NCBI GenBank assembly: GCA_032906765.1
Contig: JAJTZB010000003.1
Coordinates: 1 to 64,000 of the forward strand
Reading direction: 5' to 3'
DNA length: 64,000 bases
Source of the DNA: Nitrososphaerales archaeon
Lineage (GTDB): Archaea > Thermoproteota > Nitrososphaeria > Nitrososphaerales > Gagatemarchaeaceae
Both the position numbers and the translations under genes were made by a program. Below are positions 7,953 to 51,385 of the stretch, in pieces. How positions within the stretch are numbered: the first letter of the stretch is position 1; the number at the start of each line of letters is the position of its first letter. The notes beneath the pieces are model-generated. The model was given only the letters and a program-made list of their open reading frames with translations, did not search any database and was not told the DNA's origin.

Positions 7953-7975
7953 AGAGTTCGAATCCCACTGGGCCC
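7953..7975 (+). repeat. Solitary tRNA 3' end fragment
   Basis: AGAGTTCGAATCCCACTGGG plus CCC resembles a T arm with TTCGAAT loop followed by an acceptor 3' strand. No D or anticodon arm precedes it. A partial echo, GTCGAATCC, lies just upstream (7940-7948). It sits in the gap between livM and the radical SAM gene. Confidence 0.5.
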
Positions 7976-8095
7976 GTTATGTTTCTACGACCCTTAACAG
8001 AGGGAAAACATCGAGCTGAAGTGCCTTGATGTCGAAGGATTAACACGAATTCCACAAAATGACCACGGATTGCCGCAACCATTAAACAGTAAAGA

Positions 8096-38717: not shown

Positions 38718-38792
38718 GGGCCGGTAGCTCAGCTTGGCTAGAGCACCCGACTGATAATCGGGAGGCCAAGGGTTCGAATCCCTCCGGGCCCG
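38718..38792 (+). tRNA. tRNA-Ile(GAT), 3' end altered
   Basis: GGGCCGG acceptor, D arm GCTC/GAGC, anticodon stem CCCGA/TCGGG with CTGATAA loop (anticodon GAT) and T loop TTCGAAT are clear. The 3' side reads CCCTC CGGGCCC G: this leaves an A-C mismatch at 49-65 and a G-G mismatch at 6-67, and a discriminator G. Solitary fragments elsewhere (1244-1268) have CCCTT CCGGCCC A, which would pair perfectly. The integrase gene begins 53 bases downstream, so the 3' end may have been replaced by the attachment sequence of the island. Confidence 0.85.
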
Positions 38793-38814
38793 CTTAATAT
38801 TATCAGCGAATCCC

Positions 38815-38844: not shown

Positions 38845-40137
38845 ATGCCAAACACGGCGAAGTATCGCGACCTGCTGGACGGCGACGAGGACGTGAAGAG
38901 ATGGCACGACAATCTGGCTGCCAACTCTCCCATCACGGCGGAGGTCTACCTCAGGACGCTCGGCCTCTACTGCGGCCTGGCACACACCGCACCGAAGCAG
39001 ATTCTCAAAGACGCTCCAAAGAAGAAGTTCAGGGACGACTTCACCGACTTCGTGAGGGAGATGGAGAGGAAGGGGAAGGCAGGCTCCTACATAATCAGGT
39101 TCAAGAAGGTGATCCTCTCGTGGCTGTCATACAACAACCTCGACGTGAAGCTGAAGGTGAACATCAAGGGCAAGTCGGAGACCCCGACCATAGCGAACGA
39201 GAGGGTGCCGAGCAAGGAGGAGCTGGCGAAGATCCTGAGGATGGGGTCGCGCAGGTGCAGGGTGTCCGTCGCTCTGATGGCCCTGAGCGGATTGAGACCG
39301 GAGAGCCTGGGCAACTTCACCGGCACGGATGGAATGAGGCTGGGTGATTTCAAGGAGGCGAAGATCATCTCTGACGGAATCGCCTTCGTCAAAGTCCCCT
39401 CGATGCTGACCGTCAGGAACCCGTTGAGCAAGGCGAGGCACCAGTATTTTACATTCGTCGGAAACGAAACCATCACGTACATTCAGGAGTACCTTCACGA
39501 GAGGACGAAGCAGGGAGAGAAACTGATGGCGGACAGCCCCTTGCTGGCCTTCGACCCGAGAGGAGTCAAGAAGAACGCGTTCCTGAGGACGTCGCTGGTG
39601 ACCAGAGACATCAAGGAGGCAATCGTCAAGAGTGGCTTCTCGTGGCGCCCTTATGTGCTGAGAGCATACTGCGATACGGGCATGATCATAGCAGAGTCAA
39701 AAGGACTGATCTCTCACCCGTATCTCCAGTTCCTGATGGGGCACAAGGGAGACATAGAGGCCAGGTATTCGACCAACAAAGGCAGATTGTCGCCAACCAT
39801 GATAGAGGAGATGAGGGAGGCATACAAGAAGTGCGAGCCCGTACTCTCCACCAGAGCGGAGTCGGCGACCGAGGAGCAGGTCAAACGGGCGTTCAAGGAG
39901 CAGTTCCTCCTCATGTCAGGGTACAGCAAGGAGGACATGGAGAAGATGGATTTGGACGACCTGTCGAACGAGGAGCTTCAGAACATCGTGAGGCAGAAGC
40001 TTCTAGGCATGATGACGAACAACGGGTCAAGGCAGAAGGTGATTCCGTTAGGAGAGGTCAAGTCGTACATCGGCCAGGGGTACGAGTATGTCGCGCCGCT
40101 TCCTGACGGCGAGGCGATAGTCAGGGTGCCTTTCTAA
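38845..40137 (+). CDS. int: Tyrosine recombinase (archaeal tRNA-targeting integrase)
   Basis: The 430-residue protein has an N-terminal SAM-like core-binding region (about 15-105) and a catalytic domain with ALSGLRPESL (Arg151), RPYVLRAYCDTGM (Arg273), FLMGHKGDIEARYST (His300, nucleophile Tyr308). RPYVLR and MGHKGDIE are typical of archaeal provirus and IME integrases. It would recombine the island with the 3' end of the adjacent tRNA-Ile. A C-terminal extension of about 110 residues follows the tyrosine. The gene is intact, not split by the insertion site, so it is not of the SSV type that breaks on integration. The next gene begins directly after its stop. Confidence 0.93.
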   Translation: MPNTAKYRDLLDGDEDVKRWHDNLAANSPITAEVYLRTLGLYCGLAHTAPKQILKDAPKKKFRDDFTDFVREMERKGKAGSYIIRFKKVILSWLSYNNLDVKLKVNIKGKSETPTIANERVPSKEELAKILRMGSRRCRVSVALMALSGLRPESLGNFTGTDGMRLGDFKEAKIISDGIAFVKVPSMLTVRNPLSKARHQYFTFVGNETITYIQEYLHERTKQGEKLMADSPLLAFDPRGVKKNAFLRTSLVTRDIKEAIVKSGFSWRPYVLRAYCDTGMIIAESKGLISHPYLQFLMGHKGDIEARYSTNKGRLSPTMIEEMREAYKKCEPVLSTRAESATEEQVKRAFKEQFLLMSGYSKEDMEKMDLDDLSNEELQNIVRQKLLGMMTNNGSRQKVIPLGEVKSYIGQGYEYVAPLPDGEAIVRVPF

Positions 40138-40599
40138 ATGAGCGACTTCTACGCTGTGCTCGGAGTTACAAAGGCTGCGTCCGGCGATGCGGTCAAGGAA
40201 TCTTACAGGAAGCTGGCCCTCAGATACCATCCGGACAGAAACAGGTCACCCGAGGCAGAGGAGAGGTTCAAGGAGGTCTCCGAAGCTCATGCTGTCCTGT
40301 CGGACGATGAGAAGAGAGCCCTGTACGATGCATTGGGTCCAAAGAGGTACAACGACCCGCGGGAGGTCTACCGCTACCATCTGGAGCGCGAGGCCACCAT
40401 GCGCGAAATGAGGAGCGATTACGAGGCGTACAAGTCAGCCCGACGCGACGACATCGCCAAGACGACAGGCACCCTCCTCTTCTTCCTCTTCTTGCTGAAC
40501 CTCGTTCCTTCCTGGGTGCTGGGCCCCTGGTACTTCATATTCAACGGCTTTCTCCTCCTCTCCCTTGGCATCTCGGTCTACGAATGGTTCGAAGTCTGA
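40138..40599 (+). CDS. J-domain protein with C-terminal membrane helices
   Basis: This 153-residue protein has a complete DnaJ J-domain (residues 2-67) with [20 protein letters not shown] and the HPD tripeptide in [15 protein letters not shown]. Two hydrophobic segments near the C-terminus (about 104-145) anchor it in the membrane. J-domains call an Hsp70 (DnaK) to a place; here the place is the membrane. It starts right after the integrase stop codon, so both are translated from one message. Its presence on a mobile island next to other membrane proteins is unusual. Partner unknown. Confidence 0.85.
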
Positions 40600-40672
40600 T
40601 TTGGCAGGAAGTCGCTTGGCATGACCTTCGAATCTCTGAAGAAGCGGTTTCGCGTGGCGATGGTGATGGGCG

Positions 40673-41224
40673 ATGTTTGAATTCCTCAGGAGGTACTTCG
40701 GTACCGAGAACATTTCAGAGTGGGAGTTCAGCGACATAAAGGTGCTACTCTACCTCGGGACCCACAGGAAGGAAGACAGGCTGCCGTCTGCGGAGAAGCT
40801 CGGAAAGGAGCTCGGAATAGCCGAGGGGGTGGTTCCAGCGGCGTTTAGCAGGCTGAGGAGGCGCGGCTGCCTCTTTCCGCCACCGGAAGCGGGAACGATA
40901 CGAGACCCGAGAGAAGTCGAAGTCACCTGGAGGGGAAGGAGGGCGCTCAGACCGTTCCTGAACGCGTTCGGCTATGGCGACGTTGTGATACTGACTCTCT
41001 TCGCCTTTGGCCTGGGGGGAGTGGTCGGATTACTCTATTCAGCTTACCAGCTCTACCCGTCATACTTTGTGACCGTGCTCTTGGTCGCGGCAATCATCAC
41101 TGCCGTATTACTAGGATTCGCCGCACATACCGCAAGGATGGCTATGAAGAGTCGAAGAGATGAGCTCGACGTCATGCTGAGAAAGCCTGCCGCTGCGGTC
41201 GAAGAACGCCCGCCTCCTGAATGA
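40673..41224 (+). CDS. Winged-helix protein with two membrane helices
   Basis: This 183-residue protein starts with a winged-helix-like region (about 15-95; IKVLLYLGTHRKEDRLPSAE, KLGKELGIAEGVVPAAFSRLRRRGCL) and then two membrane helices (about 103-125 and 130-152) and a charged tail. It could be a membrane-tethered regulator. It is 73 bases after the J-domain gene. No named family is recognised. Confidence 0.6.
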   Translation: MFEFLRRYFGTENISEWEFSDIKVLLYLGTHRKEDRLPSAEKLGKELGIAEGVVPAAFSRLRRRGCLFPPPEAGTIRDPREVEVTWRGRRALRPFLNAFGYGDVVILTLFAFGLGGVVGLLYSAYQLYPSYFVTVLLVAAIITAVLLGFAAHTARMAMKSRRDELDVMLRKPAAAVEERPPPE

Positions 41225-41333
41225 AACGAGCCACAGCCTCAACGGTTGAGGCTTGAGCTTCAGACACTGAGCCCCGAACCTCGGCGCTTACTCCTATCTC
41301 CCATCCGTCCCCATACTACAGCGGCGATGGAAG

Positions 41334-41504
41334 ATGCAGAAATTCGTTGACGCCAAGCCTTTGAAGAGGCTCGCTTCAGAGCTTCTCGGCAGCAACTCGA
41401 TGCTGAGGCGCGTCCTACTCAGCGAAAATGATGTGATGCCCGCGACAGAGTTCGTGGCGGCGCTTCGAATCTATCTGTTCCTGCTGAGGGAGGAGTTCAA
41501 ATGA
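41334..41504 (+). CDS. Small basic helical protein, unknown
   Basis: This 56-residue frame reads MQKFVDAKPLKRLASELL and ends AALRIYLFLLREEFK. It is rich in leucine, arginine and lysine, probably two helices. The stop overlaps the ATG of the next gene (ATGA), which supports it as real although it is short. Confidence 0.55.
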   Translation: MQKFVDAKPLKRLASELLGSNSMLRRVLLSENDVMPATEFVAALRIYLFLLREEFK

Positions 41505-41788
41505 ACGTATCTACTTTCACGAAGTGGCAGAGGTACAAGCTCATCGCCATTCTGGCCTCTTTCACATTCCTCCTTCTCTATACTCGACGCTTCCCACTCG
41601 ACCTGTTCGCAGTGTTCCCCGCGATTGGTGCCGCTATCCTGATCATGAGGACAAGGATACTGAGACACTTCGCCAAGACACCGATAAGGCAGGTCGCTTA
41701 CGTCTCCCTGATAGAGCCCGTCTATCACTACTACACCGTCAATGTCGGCGAGGACGAGAACGGTCGTCCGATAATTGGAGGAGCATAA
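41501..41788 (+). CDS. Small membrane protein, unknown
   Basis: This 95-residue protein has two hydrophobic helices (about 12-27 and 34-49, LIAILASFTFLLLY and LFAVFPAIGAAILIM) and a C-terminal soluble part with VAYVSLIEPVYHYYTVNVGED. It is coupled to both neighbours by overlap or near-contact, so it belongs to the island operon. No family is recognised. Confidence 0.6.
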   Translation: MNVSTFTKWQRYKLIAILASFTFLLLYTRRFPLDLFAVFPAIGAAILIMRTRILRHFAKTPIRQVAYVSLIEPVYHYYTVNVGEDENGRPIIGGA

Positions 41789-41791
41789 TTG

Positions 41792-42937
41792 ATGCCGGTG
41801 GACTTTTCCTCCGAGCTTTCGCTTGGAATCGTGACCCTTCTGTCGATAGCTATAGAGCGGACGAGCCGCATCTGGTTATCCTCGCTCGGGAATGCAAGGA
41901 CCGAAGCAGTCGTGGCCTCCATAGCCAAGTGGTTCCCGCCTATCCTGACTTTCGCTTTTCTGACCTCATTCATGTCCAGTGCTTTCGCGATAGATGCTGT
42001 TCCCTGGTTGCTGATAGTCCCGCTCGCAGCTGCGCTGGTCCTCATCTACGTCGAAACTAGGAGCGATGGTAGACCGGCACCCGCAAGTCGGAATTTCAAT
42101 GCCCCCGAAGGCGTGGTCAATGATCACGGGAAGCCAGATCCCGGACGAAACGACTCCGAGCCAGTCAATACGCTCGACGGCAGGGCACAGACCCCAAGAG
42201 GTGAACTCAGCACGTCTGCGCAACCTGTGAAGGACATGGCAACAGGAACTTCAAAGAGCGCCGACGCCCACCCACAGCAGGCAGCAGATTTCACGCCGAG
42301 AACTGCCAAACCAGACCCTTCACACGGAGCTCGAGACCAATTGGTCAACTCAGCTACGCACGAACAGTCTGCCACATCTCCCTCCCCCGGTCAGGCAGAC
42401 GCTCCATCACGCGATGTCGTCTACGGCCTCACAGAGAATGCAAAGAGACTGCTGGAGTTCAAACCACCTAGCGGCAGGAGGGGCGGTGGGCCTCTGCACG
42501 TCAAGATGATGAAGGTGATGTACTACTTCTACTTGGAGAAGGGCTGGTATGTCAACGTCGACGAAGGGGACGAGAAGGAGCAGAGGCCTGACTTCGAGGT
42601 CTGGGAGCCACTTGTCCACCTGAAGAGGCTTGAGGACGGAACCGTCAGGGAGGAATGGGATACTAAGGAGTGGGACCCGAAGCCCTTCCACGTCGAGTTC
42701 GAGACGACTCCCCGCAAGTCCAAGTCCTCCGTCATCGAGAACTACGAGAAGGCGTGGAGGCTCCAGAGGTACGTAGTCTTCGTAGTGCCGAGCAAACAGG
42801 ATGCCAACGACCTGAGGAAGATACTCGAGGAGATCGGGGCGTCCAAGGACACGTACGAGGTGGACGACATCTCGGACCTGCTCAGCGAGTACTCAGAACA
42901 AAGGGCGGGAGTGATAGGATATAATCAGCTTGGCTGA
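41792..42937 (+). CDS. Membrane-anchored protein with nuclease-like C-terminal domain
   Basis: The 381-residue protein has two or three membrane helices in its first 88 residues, a long disordered linker rich in Pro, Ser, Thr and Asp (about 90-205), and a compact C-terminal domain (about 210-345). That domain has MKVMYYFYLEKGWYVNVDEG, RPDFEVWEP and HVEFETTPRKSKSSVIENYEK, then a VVFVVPS strand. The D...E-x-E..K arrangement resembles restriction-endonuclease-fold domains often attached to archaeal conjugation or HerA-type ATPases. It may cut DNA at the membrane. Either TTG 41789 or ATG 41792 can start it. The stop overlaps the next gene. Confidence 0.6.
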   Translation: MPVDFSSELSLGIVTLLSIAIERTSRIWLSSLGNARTEAVVASIAKWFPPILTFAFLTSFMSSAFAIDAVPWLLIVPLAAALVLIYVETRSDGRPAPASRNFNAPEGVVNDHGKPDPGRNDSEPVNTLDGRAQTPRGELSTSAQPVKDMATGTSKSADAHPQQAADFTPRTAKPDPSHGARDQLVNSATHEQSATSPSPGQADAPSRDVVYGLTENAKRLLEFKPPSGRRGGGPLHVKMMKVMYYFYLEKGWYVNVDEGDEKEQRPDFEVWEPLVHLKRLEDGTVREEWDTKEWDPKPFHVEFETTPRKSKSSVIENYEKAWRLQRYVVFVVPSKQDANDLRKILEEIGASKDTYEVDDISDLLSEYSEQRAGVIGYNQLG

Positions 42938-43397
42938 GTTCCACAATCAGAACGTCGAACTCTGTGAGGAGCTCCTGCGTGACGATTGCGCCTCCCCTCA
43001 GGTGACGATTATCACGAATGAGAATCAATCCGTGATCTTTCTGTGGGAGTACTTCAAGGAGCAGGTGAAGCGCCCCCTCCTCCTGCTCGACTACGCCATC
43101 TCGAACGTGGAGAATTGGGAGCTTGCAGGCTTCATATGCGTTTTTGCCATCGGGCGAATGCTGAAGGACTACAGGCCAGGTGCCATCCAAGGGTTGCCGG
43201 ACAAGCGCAGGGAGATGTGGGTCCTAACGGTCTCTAAAGAGGGCAAGGAGTTGTGCACACTGAAACGAATCATTGGGGAAGGGAAGGAGATGGTCCTAGA
43301 AGAGGTGAAAGCTGGGGACGACCCGTTCCTTGCGGATGCTCGCCCCTCCCCCAAGACGCCAATGACAAGAGCAAGTAGGTGGGTGGCAGGATGGTAA
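42930..43397 (+). CDS. Unknown protein of the integrase island
   Basis: This 155-residue protein begins with TTG inside the end of the preceding gene. It is soluble, with EFHNQNVELCEELLRDDCA, VIFLWEYFKEQVKRPLLLLDY and a beta-rich region EMWVLTVSKEGKELCTLKRI. I do not recognise the family. Coupling to the nuclease-like gene suggests a shared role. Confidence 0.55.
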   Translation: MAEFHNQNVELCEELLRDDCASPQVTIITNENQSVIFLWEYFKEQVKRPLLLLDYAISNVENWELAGFICVFAIGRMLKDYRPGAIQGLPDKRREMWVLTVSKEGKELCTLKRIIGEGKEMVLEEVKAGDDPFLADARPSPKTPMTRASRWVAGW

Positions 43398-43759
43398 GAC
43401 TGACCTTCAGGGAATGGTCCCTCAGGTCAGCGATAAGGGCGTGCGTTTACGTAGGGCCAAGGTCAATACCATTGGTGAGAAAGCTCCTTCTCTTGCACAA
43501 CAGAGTATCGAAGAAGCAGCAGAGGACGGGAAGGGCGTACGTCCCATTAAGAACCTACGTAATGAGCCTCGACGACCTGAGGATCCTGAAGGAAGGACTA
43601 GACTCAATTCCAGACGAGGAGAGGCTACCATCGGACAGGAGGCTGCTCTACAACGTCGGTTTGAGGTTGAGCGCCATCGAGGCGGGAGAAGACTTGCGGA
43701 TTGCGGTCCTGAGAGACAGGAGAAAGAGAGGATTGAGGAGGCAGACATACCGTCGGTAG
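43391..43759 (+). CDS. Basic unknown protein of the integrase island
   Basis: This 122-residue protein starts MVRLTFREWSLRSAIRA, overlapping the previous stop by 7 bases. It is rich in Arg, Leu and Lys (VRKLLLLHNRVSKKQQRTGR and a very basic end DRRKRGLRRQTYRR), which suggests nucleic-acid binding. A second open frame (43414-43842) overlaps it; its low-complexity Arg/Glu composition makes it the shadow. Confidence 0.5.
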   Translation: MVRLTFREWSLRSAIRACVYVGPRSIPLVRKLLLLHNRVSKKQQRTGRAYVPLRTYVMSLDDLRILKEGLDSIPDEERLPSDRRLLYNVGLRLSAIEAGEDLRIAVLRDRRKRGLRRQTYRR

Positions 43760-43889
43760 ACCGGCAATTCAACTACGACACCTATGTGATTCGAACTCCA
43801 GGTCGAACTGCAATTGACAGGCTGGCCGGAGCAATCGCGTAACGGCAGGTTGGGCTGTTGTTGTTTGGCTTCAAGTCGAAGAAGGGAAT

Positions 43890-44138
43890 TTGAGACAAAC
43901 GAACATCACCCGACGGCAGGATAGGGTGGCTACATGCCTGAATGTGGTTGCAGTTGTCAATGTTGGGCGCAGACAGGAGATATACTATCCGCAAGACATT
44001 GGAGCGCCGCAGAACGGCCTGTGGCTCGGCTCGCGCATCTGGTCCACCCTCACCTGTCGTGCTGTCAGTCAATTTGAATGGATAGTTGCCAGAGGCAACG
44101 AAGGCAAGGCCCCAGCTGTAGTTTGGGCTTCATGTTAA
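43890..44138 (+). CDS. Possible small protein, unknown
   Basis: This 82-residue TTG-started frame contains LNVVAVVNVGRRQEIYYPQD and SQFEWIVARGNEGKAPAVV, which look more like protein than random sequence. There is no clear promoter and no family match. The frame lies between the basic-protein gene and the ATPase gene. It may be a remnant. The rest of 43760-44150 shows nothing else. Confidence 0.35.
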   Translation: MRQTNITRRQDRVATCLNVVAVVNVGRRQEIYYPQDIGAPQNGLWLGSRIWSTLTCRAVSQFEWIVARGNEGKAPAVVWASC

Positions 44139-44182
44139 CTATCGCATCTTCCTTATATGTCATTAACATGGTGTCACGTTAA
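44134..44182. promoter_or_regulatory. ATPase gene promoter with TTAAC/GTTAA inverted repeat
   Basis: TATA box TTATATG (44153-44159) is followed by TTAAC (44163-44167) and GTTAA (44178-44182), an inverted repeat with a 10-base spacer that covers the expected start of transcription. A GTTAAC palindrome lies upstream at 44134-44139. The same TTAAC motif occurs at the end of the gene. Confidence 0.55.
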
Positions 44183-44190
44183 TCATCACC

Positions 44191-45492
44191 ATGGACACGC
44201 AAACAGCCGCCCAGCAGCAGCTCACAAGGTGGCTTCTCAGCTATGAAGATGAGTTCTTCTCTCTTCTCTATTACGATGTGGATGGATTTGCCGAGAAGGC
44301 AGCTCCCAGAGTCTTTCAACACGGGCGAAGCATCTCTCTTTACGGCGTCAGGGGGATAGGCAAGACGACGGTGGCCCAAGGGATACTCGCGGCAGGGTTG
44401 CGCCTGTCAGGCAATTCCAGCTACCTGCCAGTCATGGTCTCCGTCAAGGGTTCCAGAAGCGTCAGCTCCCTTCAGGAGCTTGAGGAGAGGTTCTACCAGT
44501 CAACACTCCAAGCTCTCCTCAGTGTCGCTACGCTGAGAGAAAGGTTTGAGCGGATGAAGAAGACGGCGAGGACCTACGTGCCTTGGGTGGCCGAGAAAGC
44601 AGTTGACGCCGCAGGCCTGGTCTTCCCTCCCGCCTTTCTCGCCTCGGATGCTGTCAAGGAAGGAATCGAAAAGCTCCTCGACAGAGCAGGTTTGAGGCAG
44701 CCTGAAAAGCTAGTTCTCACGAAAGAGGTCGATAGGAGGCTCTCGATCGACCTCCTGCTCAACGGGCTGTCTGAGAAGGGCGTGGAGCCTGTATTCACGA
44801 TAGACGAGCTAGACAAGGTTCCGAGGGATGACTTGCTATCCGAGTTCTTCGACGGCAACCAGGAGTGGTTCCAGGGCAAGAGGAGTATGATCTCACTTTC
44901 ACACTCATTCGGTGAAGCGATTAAGGATTCGCTCGTAACCTCGGTGGCGAGGTTCTCTTCGGTTGAACATTACAAAGGCATCACGTCTCTCAACGAGTTG
45001 AAGGAGATATTGCGTCCCAGGCTGGTGCTCGGGCTGTCACAGGTTGCAAAGGATGAGTCAGAAGCAGAGACCATTGCTTCTGAACTCTTCTCCGAGGAAG
45101 CGCTGAAGACGATTCTGGATCTCTACGTGCCCAACACCCACCTAATGCTCGAATCCGCGTATGCAGGGCTGGAAAGAGCCAAGAAAGAGCGTGCAGAGAA
45201 AGTACTCCCGAGGCACATAGAGCCAGAAACGACCGAAGAGAGACATCGAGTTCCAACCGGCCTGGAAAGATTGATTCTGGATGAACTCAGTCGGGAAGGT
45301 AGACTTACCCCATCTGATCTATCCGAGAGGCTTGACAAGAAAGCGCCCTCGATAGTTAGGGCACTTTCCTCGATGCTCAACAGAGGTTGGGTGGGAAGGG
45401 TCGGTGAGAGAAAAAGGGCGTATTACCACATCACCCAGAAGGGCGAGGCCGCGAGAAGATCGTTAACTCGGGAGAGAGTTAATTATATATAA
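44191..45492 (+). CDS. AAA/STAND-type ATPase with C-terminal winged helix
   Basis: The 433-residue protein has Walker A in LYGVRGIGKTTVAQGIL (about 50-65) and Walker B VFTIDELDKVP (about 203-212), where DELDK recalls Orc1/Cdc6-like and STAND ATPases. A sensor-like RSMISLSHS follows. The C-terminal 75 residues form a MarR-like winged helix (LERLILDELSREGRLTPSDL, IVRALSSMLNRGWV, then a wing ending YYHITQKGE). It may start replication of the island, regulate its genes or sense invaders; I cannot choose between these. Inverted repeats with matching TTAAC ends lie at both its 5' and 3' ends, suggesting autoregulation. Confidence 0.7.
   Translation: MDTQTAAQQQLTRWLLSYEDEFFSLLYYDVDGFAEKAAPRVFQHGRSISLYGVRGIGKTTVAQGILAAGLRLSGNSSYLPVMVSVKGSRSVSSLQELEERFYQSTLQALLSVATLRERFERMKKTARTYVPWVAEKAVDAAGLVFPPAFLASDAVKEGIEKLLDRAGLRQPEKLVLTKEVDRRLSIDLLLNGLSEKGVEPVFTIDELDKVPRDDLLSEFFDGNQEWFQGKRSMISLSHSFGEAIKDSLVTSVARFSSVEHYKGITSLNELKEILRPRLVLGLSQVAKDESEAETIASELFSEEALKTILDLYVPNTHLMLESAYAGLERAKKERAEKVLPRHIEPETTEERHRVPTGLERLILDELSREGRLTPSDLSERLDKKAPSIVRALSSMLNRGWVGRVGERKRAYYHITQKGEAARRSLTRERVNYI
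45463..45492. promoter_or_regulatory. Inverted repeat and TATA box at the end of the ATPase gene
   Basis: TTAACTC (45463-45469) and GAGTTAA (45476-45482) form a perfect 7-bp inverted repeat, directly followed by TTATATATAA (45483-45492), a strong TATA box that overlaps the ATPase stop. Transcription would begin near 45515 on the plus strand, but no reading frame follows before the converging gene ends at 45722. It may drive a non-coding RNA. Confidence 0.45.
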
Positions 45493-45721
45493 GCTGAGAA
45501 GAACGCTTAACCTTGGGGCGTAGGTAGCACTCTACTCCTTACTGCGTTCCTTCAGACAACGGCGGGCTGCGGTAATCTCCCTCCTTCCAGAGCGTGTAGT
45601 AATTTCTCGCACGTTGCTGTTCTTCAGACTGACCTCAAGGGCCGTATCTCACGCGGCGCCGAGCCTAGGTACCTTGAGAGATGGAAAGCGCATCCAGCGA
45701 CATAAGGAGCATTCTCTTTCA

Positions 45722-50810: not shown

Positions 50811-51385
50811 CTTCTCACCTCATGGCGATCTGGAAAATCTGACGGGTGTGACCTTCACAGGTTCCGTTCACGACTACTCCGGAACACTTTGAAAGCGCTT
50901 CGAATTCGCAGTTAGCCGAGCCTGAATCGTCGTTGTCTCGTAATTTGCTGGGCTTCACCGCGTTCGGGGGGGGGGGCGCACATTTATGCTCTCGTGTGAA
51001 ATCACCCAAAGAGCATCGAGATTTAGCCATGCGTTTTCTAATCGGAGGGAATATCGAGTCACCGGTTTCGGATTCGCTTAATGATTTAAGCAAATCCCTC
51101 CGGACCTGAACCCATAACACGTGAAGAGGCCGCGATTCAGCACTAACCCACGCTTCGAAATAGTGGCGTTTATATCGCTTGGCTGGGAATGTCTGTTCAT
51201 GCCTTCCTCCCGTAGGAAACTGGAGGGAGAGAACCGTACTGCGGATGCAGGTTCCCGGCCGGGGCAAACCTTTCGATTCTCGCCCTTTTCCGTAGGTTCG
51301 AATCCCTTCCAGCCCATCCTGATATCCCGATGGGTCCCAAAGTGAAGTTTTCTTATGGCAGTTCGCATCAAAAAAGCGTTCTTCT
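50811..51385. other. Gene-poor stretch with hairpin and tRNA fragment
   Basis: No supported gene lies here. It contains a 10-base G run (50967-50976), a perfect hairpin GCTTAA/TTAAGC (51076-51091) followed by AATCCCTCCGG, which matches 11 bases of the tRNA-Ile 3' end, and a tRNA 3' fragment at 51294-51316. Confidence 0.5.
51294..51316 (+). repeat. Solitary tRNA 3' end fragment
   Basis: AGGTTCGAATCCCTTCCAGC followed by CCA has the T loop TTCGAAT and an acceptor strand CCAGCCC with discriminator A. The 5' tRNA parts are missing. It would match a tRNA beginning GGGCTGG, different from the tRNA-Ile in this window. Confidence 0.55.

Follow-up and report, generated by a model that had tools for sequence, protein, structure and literature searches.

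Introduction

Winged-helix repressors of the MarR family (MarR_2, PF12802) control their own genes from a palindromic operator located between the TATA box and the start of the gene. AspA, encoded by the archaeal plasmid pNOB8, is a small stand-alone protein that recognises a palindromic site at the operon encoding it, with the ParB and ParA genes adjoining. Archaeal AAA/STAND-like ATPases with winged helices (AAA_16, AAA_22 and ATPase_2; HVO_A0261_N for the winged helix) carry Walker A and B motifs and are found in mobile islands. In the antisense-RNA control of plasmid replication genes, a promoter reads back over the controlled gene.

The gene described here shares features with these systems: a winged helix and an operator placed as in MarR autorepressors, a remote profile and fold match to AspA, which is likewise archaeal and encoded by a mobile element, the Walker motifs and island setting of the ATPases, and, as in plasmid antisense control, a putative promoter directed back over the gene. 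The original prediction had pointed to TTAAC/GTTAA inverted repeats at its two ends. To that picture we add a third half-site, a TATA box at fixed spacing and the inversion of the second copy.

Results

The ATPase-winged-helix protein

The window, a 64,000-nt stretch of DNA from a Nitrososphaerales archaeon, contains an ORF of 433 aa (44191..45492, plus strand) encoding an ATPase with a C-terminal winged helix, as seen from matches to Pfam AAA_16, AAA_22 and MarR_2 and from the full-length relatives at loci L056 and L058. The Walker A motif GVRGIGKT (residues 52-59; 44344..44367, plus) has core residues that are invariant in three full-length relatives. The Walker B region PVFTIDE (residues 200-206; 44788..44808, plus) reads PVFTIDELDK in its fuller form, and IDELDK is invariant in three relatives. 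All matches of the ATPase part to AAA_16, AAA_22 and ATPase_2 lie below the Pfam cut-offs.

The winged-helix domain (residues 356-426; 45256..45468, plus) scored 30.4 bits against MarR_2, above the Pfam cut-off of 27. Its AlphaFold model had a pLDDT of 86 and matched AspA and many MarR repressors in Foldseek; the model of the whole protein, built from a single sequence, was poor (pLDDT 34). The best match was AspA (4rs8, 5k5q), with a profile E-value of 3e-5 and a fold TM of 0.77-0.82. Profile and model together confirm a winged-helix fold of MarR type, and the ATPase with winged helix that had been proposed for this gene was thus recovered. The recognition helix in the model is APSIVRALSSMLNR (residues 385-398; 45343..45384, plus; helix H39-52 of the model).

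An Orc1/Cdc6 initiator was considered and rejected. The AAA matches are weak, a Pfam-type domain search of the protein found neither Cdc6_C nor another initiator domain, and a profile search among solved structures returned no Orc1/Cdc6 chain. PADLOC anti-phage profiles gave partial, weak matches only (CARF winged-helix tails, E 3e-5; mad8, E 1.4e-3).

Two 49-bp modules at the ends of the gene

Two palindromes TTAAC-N10-GTTAA were located at 44163..44182 and 45463..45482, and GTTAAC at 44134, exactly where the original prediction had put them. Each palindrome belongs to a 49-bp module of fixed layout, GTTAA-N24-TTAAC-N10-GTTAA, whose N24 contains a TATA box, so that a module comprises three half-sites (GTTAA/TTAAC) at fixed spacing around the box. 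GTTAAC at 44134 is the third half-site of module A and not a separate site. The earlier statement that the two spacers differ around a shared core holds for their sequences, whereas their length is the same (10) in both palindromes.

Module A (44134..44182, plus; exact pattern match) is placed as an operator over the gene's own core promoter. Its TATA box, CTTATAT (44152..44158, plus), agrees with the promoters of this genome: in ~480 kb, CTTATAT/TTTATA boxes at −40 to −24 of genes were found 15 times in the sense direction and 5 times reversed. Because the distance from TATA box to ATG is ~35 bp, the palindrome lies between the box and the expected transcription start, predicted at ~44180-44182 inside the second palindrome arm. 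On sequence grounds, module A is the promoter of the ATPase gene.

Module B (45463..45511, minus) is inverted, overlaps the stop codon and faces back into the gene. Its TATA box CTTATATAT (minus-strand reading; 45485..45493) stands in the same register as that of module A.

Occurrence of the module

Exact modules occur twice in the 1.77 Mb genome, both at this gene, and no others were found elsewhere in the genome with up to 2 mismatches allowed. About 0.00015 (1.5e-4) modules per genome are expected from dinucleotide frequencies. Chance origin was therefore rejected, with two modules found against 1.5e-4 expected and TATA-bearing copies in the class only at genes with this winged helix. These genome-wide statistics come from pattern searches of the genome and of ~480 kb of its DNA. 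The scan for TTAAC-N(6-10)-GTTAA that had been suggested matched at 4 places and its reversed control at 2; the bare palindrome is mildly special, whereas the 49-bp module is far beyond chance. Within the window, TTAAC-N(4-14)-GTTAA matched only the two palindromes (0.07 expected by shuffling), and GTTAAC alone is not over-represented (2 found, 5.3 expected).

Across 400 genomes of the class there were 6 occurrences of the module, and the reversed control gave 5. Four of the six, namely A, B, one in genome G011 and one in G052, carry a TATA box in register, and all four adjoin genes with this winged helix; the other two lie in AT-rich DNA and have no TATA box. A close relative of this winged helix occurs in just two further genomes of the class, and these are G011 and G052.

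Relatives and conservation of module B

Five relatives sharing the recognition helix of the window gene were identified, spread over two archaeal classes. L003 (G052) is a stand-alone winged-helix ORF of 104 aa. L005/L002 (G011) retains the last 70-odd codons, truncated upstream and lacking a start codon. L056 (G416) is a full-length gene whose 5' end is cut by the contig start, L057 (G538) is a decayed relic and L094 (G458) a smaller one of 28 residues. G416 and G538 fall in a second class within the phylum. Residues PSIVRAL of the recognition helix are identical in the window, L003, L005 and L056.

Module B is present at L003, L005, L056 (with a 9-base spacer) and L057, in each case over or just past the stop codon and oriented inward, and a TATA box in the register of promoter A is present in each module B. 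L094 has no module, having lost it. A winged-helix profile search gave two more loci in the other class, both with module B at the 3' end. No module was found at L058, a full-length relative from another lineage with 41% identity and a different recognition helix, nor at six weaker winged-helix relatives (L013, L063-L065, L093, L095). From genome to genome, the presence of the module goes with the identity of the recognition helix, as is expected of a cognate binding site. The idea that the winged helix binds these sites and controls its own gene gains support from this tracking; the binding itself we infer from sequence comparison. It is very improbable that another regulator binds the modules, since in two classes the modules go along with this recognition helix, and the genomes concerned hold no other TATA-bearing module.

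All 15 half-site bases are identical among five compared modules, which were chosen by exact pattern (L056 deviating by one spacer base), and the remaining positions show 29% pairwise identity. Between the window and L005, 7, 7 and 48 of the 71 winged-helix codons differ at positions 1, 2 and 3, a pattern indicating that the winged-helix coding sequence is under protein-level selection with third positions saturated. Because neutral sites are saturated, the 15 preserved bp are under selection. Module A is checkable in only one locus, as L056 is cut at its 5' end and L003, L005 and L057 have lost the ATPase part.

The two inverted modules exactly bound one gene (44134-45511), and one-ended C-terminal fragments occur elsewhere (L005, L057), as might be seen if the modules were terminal inverted repeats of a small transposable unit. 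Real terminal repeats would be alike, whereas outside half-sites and TATA box modules A and B agree at only 4/25 positions. No target duplication was seen at the ends, no transposase domain was found in the gene product and the gene is single-copy in this genome, which makes such a unit extremely improbable.

Three further observations concern the relatives. The perfect module at L057 (1423-1471), beside the winged-helix relic, faces an MNT/HEPN-like gene pair (by eye), and its spacers match window module A at 14/25 positions against 6/25 for module B. The stand-alone winged-helix gene of L003 (1-2702) lies among toxin-antitoxin-like genes (PIN/VapC, RelE-like; by eye). L004 in G010 (1501-2201, minus) is a broken relative of the ATPase part, with 31% identity, stops and a frameshift, and without winged helix or module.

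Genomic island and spread

The ATPase gene lies ~5 kb from a distant tyrosine recombinase/integrase gene (38845..40137, plus; NCBIfam XerA_Arch, E 3e-6, below cut-off; PHROG integrase, E 5.7e-5) next to tRNA-Ile (38718..38793, plus). L058 likewise lies beside an integrase-like gene, identified by eye, and the gene is therefore assigned to integrative islands. A similar setting has been described for cryptic integrated elements of Thaumarchaeota (PMC6563490). A search for attR gave no convincing copy of the tRNA-Ile end. Beside the integrase, positions 40138-41224 encode an unusual pair, a DnaJ domain and a winged-helix protein, both with membrane segments. Sequences like tRNA 3' ends, at which no tRNA was called, were seen in the window at 51295-51315, 1247-1268 and 7955-7976; they may be tRNA genes with introns that escaped ARAGORN, or old att sites.

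A profile of the full-length protein found only two full-length genes in the 400 class genomes, and the ATPase part turned up at only four loci, one of them a broken copy. Searches of viral contigs, phages and plasmids gave no relative of the full protein. The winged helix alone had no match in phages and viruses and only weak Rhizobium matches in plasmids.

These data bear on the possibility that the modules serve an integrated plasmid as sites resembling a centromere or an origin, the protein being an AspA-like partition or replication protein that also controls its promoter. The closest solved structure by both profile and fold is indeed AspA, the centromere-binding protein of pNOB8, and in two lineages the gene occupies an island with an integrase (the second integrase by eye). 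Against this, domain searches of the neighbours (38845-43842) found no ParA/ParB or replication gene, the protein has no initiator domain, and it was not found in plasmids or phages. The original prediction had offered iterons near an origin as an alternative, which found no support: each module has only three half-sites, and neither a direct-repeat array nor an origin signature is present. We regard a centromere or origin as doubtful.

The module pattern occurred in 34 stretches of viral contigs, and in one of these a TATA box stands in register ahead of a small ORF. This exact 49-bp module (L032, 726-774; IMGVR_UViG_3300028891_000081) carries TTTATATAT in register, 16 bp 5' of the ORF, on a tailed-virus-like contig. 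A virus may share the operator, or the match may be due to chance. Because no winged-helix relative was found on the record and the weak protein match there is a tape-measure-like protein, it remains a lead only. A literature search gave no paper matching an archaeal operator of such design, which is weak evidence of novelty.

Direction of module B

The TATA boxes of A, L005 and L056 have an unambiguous direction, all along the module; those of B, L003 and L057 are nearly symmetric. Because of this near-symmetry, we infer the direction of B partly from L005 and L056. Transcription from module B most likely runs antisense, into the part of the gene that encodes the winged helix, with a predicted start at ~45463. 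A second promoter had been proposed at this end of the gene. Its TATA box was found, but no consistent gene lies to the right, and by the TATA orientation seen in this genome the promoter would read back into the ATPase gene. For these two reasons it is more probably an antisense promoter than one serving a neighbour.

An A-rich BRE is absent upstream of the module TATA box, and GTTAAT on the reverse strand resembles a BRE; because of this likeness, a divergent or rightward start at B has to be allowed for. Module B could then be an outward promoter-operator for a neighbour gene or a small RNA to the right, with TATATATA near-symmetric and the plus-strand GTTAAT upstream of it as an archaeal BRE. 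We consider this improbable, as the five loci have no common gene to the right, no Rfam match was obtained, and both the TATA orientation in the genome and the boxes of L005 and L056 face inward.

Searches for a conserved fold in the antisense RNA found none (z −1.8 to +1.1), and no antisense ORF in the region stood out. Both results would fit a module B that serves as an operator for looping or as a roadblock, the protein bridging A and B (1.3 kb apart) and no antisense transcript being made; so would the identical three-half-site operators at both gene ends and nowhere else. Yet a TATA box in the register of A is kept in every module B, where looping would have no use for it, and module B persists at L003, L005 and L057, where A is lost. 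Looping is unlikely, if the least so of the alternatives considered.

Discussion

Autoregulation of the ATPase gene is well supported by the comparison of loci. The fuller proposal, to which we give somewhat better than an even chance, is that this island-borne winged-helix ATPase represses two promoters, A in front of its gene and B, a conserved antisense promoter lying over the 3' end of that gene. Its main competitors are looping, an outward promoter at B and a centromere-like role. The winged helix would recognise the GTTAA/TTAAC half-sites. A dimer on palindrome A would cover the stretch from TATA box to transcription start, with the third half-site upstream of the box, so that the transcription complex could not assemble and the gene would be repressed. 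From module B an antisense RNA would run into the sequence encoding the winged helix, and this protein would repress it too. The oligomer state across the three half-sites may be set by ATP binding or hydrolysis.

More tentatively, and with a probability we put a little short of even, the two modules may form a two-ended circuit in which loss of repressor turns on both strands and whose 3' module is kept across two archaeal classes. If this is true, a shortage of repressor would free mRNA and antisense RNA together, and overshoot would be damped.

Comparison with the known systems brings out what may be particular to this locus. Unlike the AAA/STAND-like ATPases, its ATPase part matches their Pfam families only below the cut-offs and was found at only four loci. 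Comparative evidence alone pairs an uncharacterised ATPase of archaeal mobile islands with a probable binding site. The AspA system differs in its adjacent parB and parA, which were not found here. In contrast to plasmid antisense-RNA control, the same operator lies on the sense and the putative antisense promoter, and a conserved RNA fold was not detected. The locus offers a testable repressor-controlled antisense promoter in archaea, where functional ones are difficult to distinguish from noise. Unlike in MarR autorepressors, the winged helix is here the tail of an ATPase, three half-sites surround the TATA box and an inverted module stands at the 3' end. The strict 49-bp geometry around the TATA box would be a clean substrate for studying competition between an ATPase-linked winged helix and the archaeal transcription machinery.
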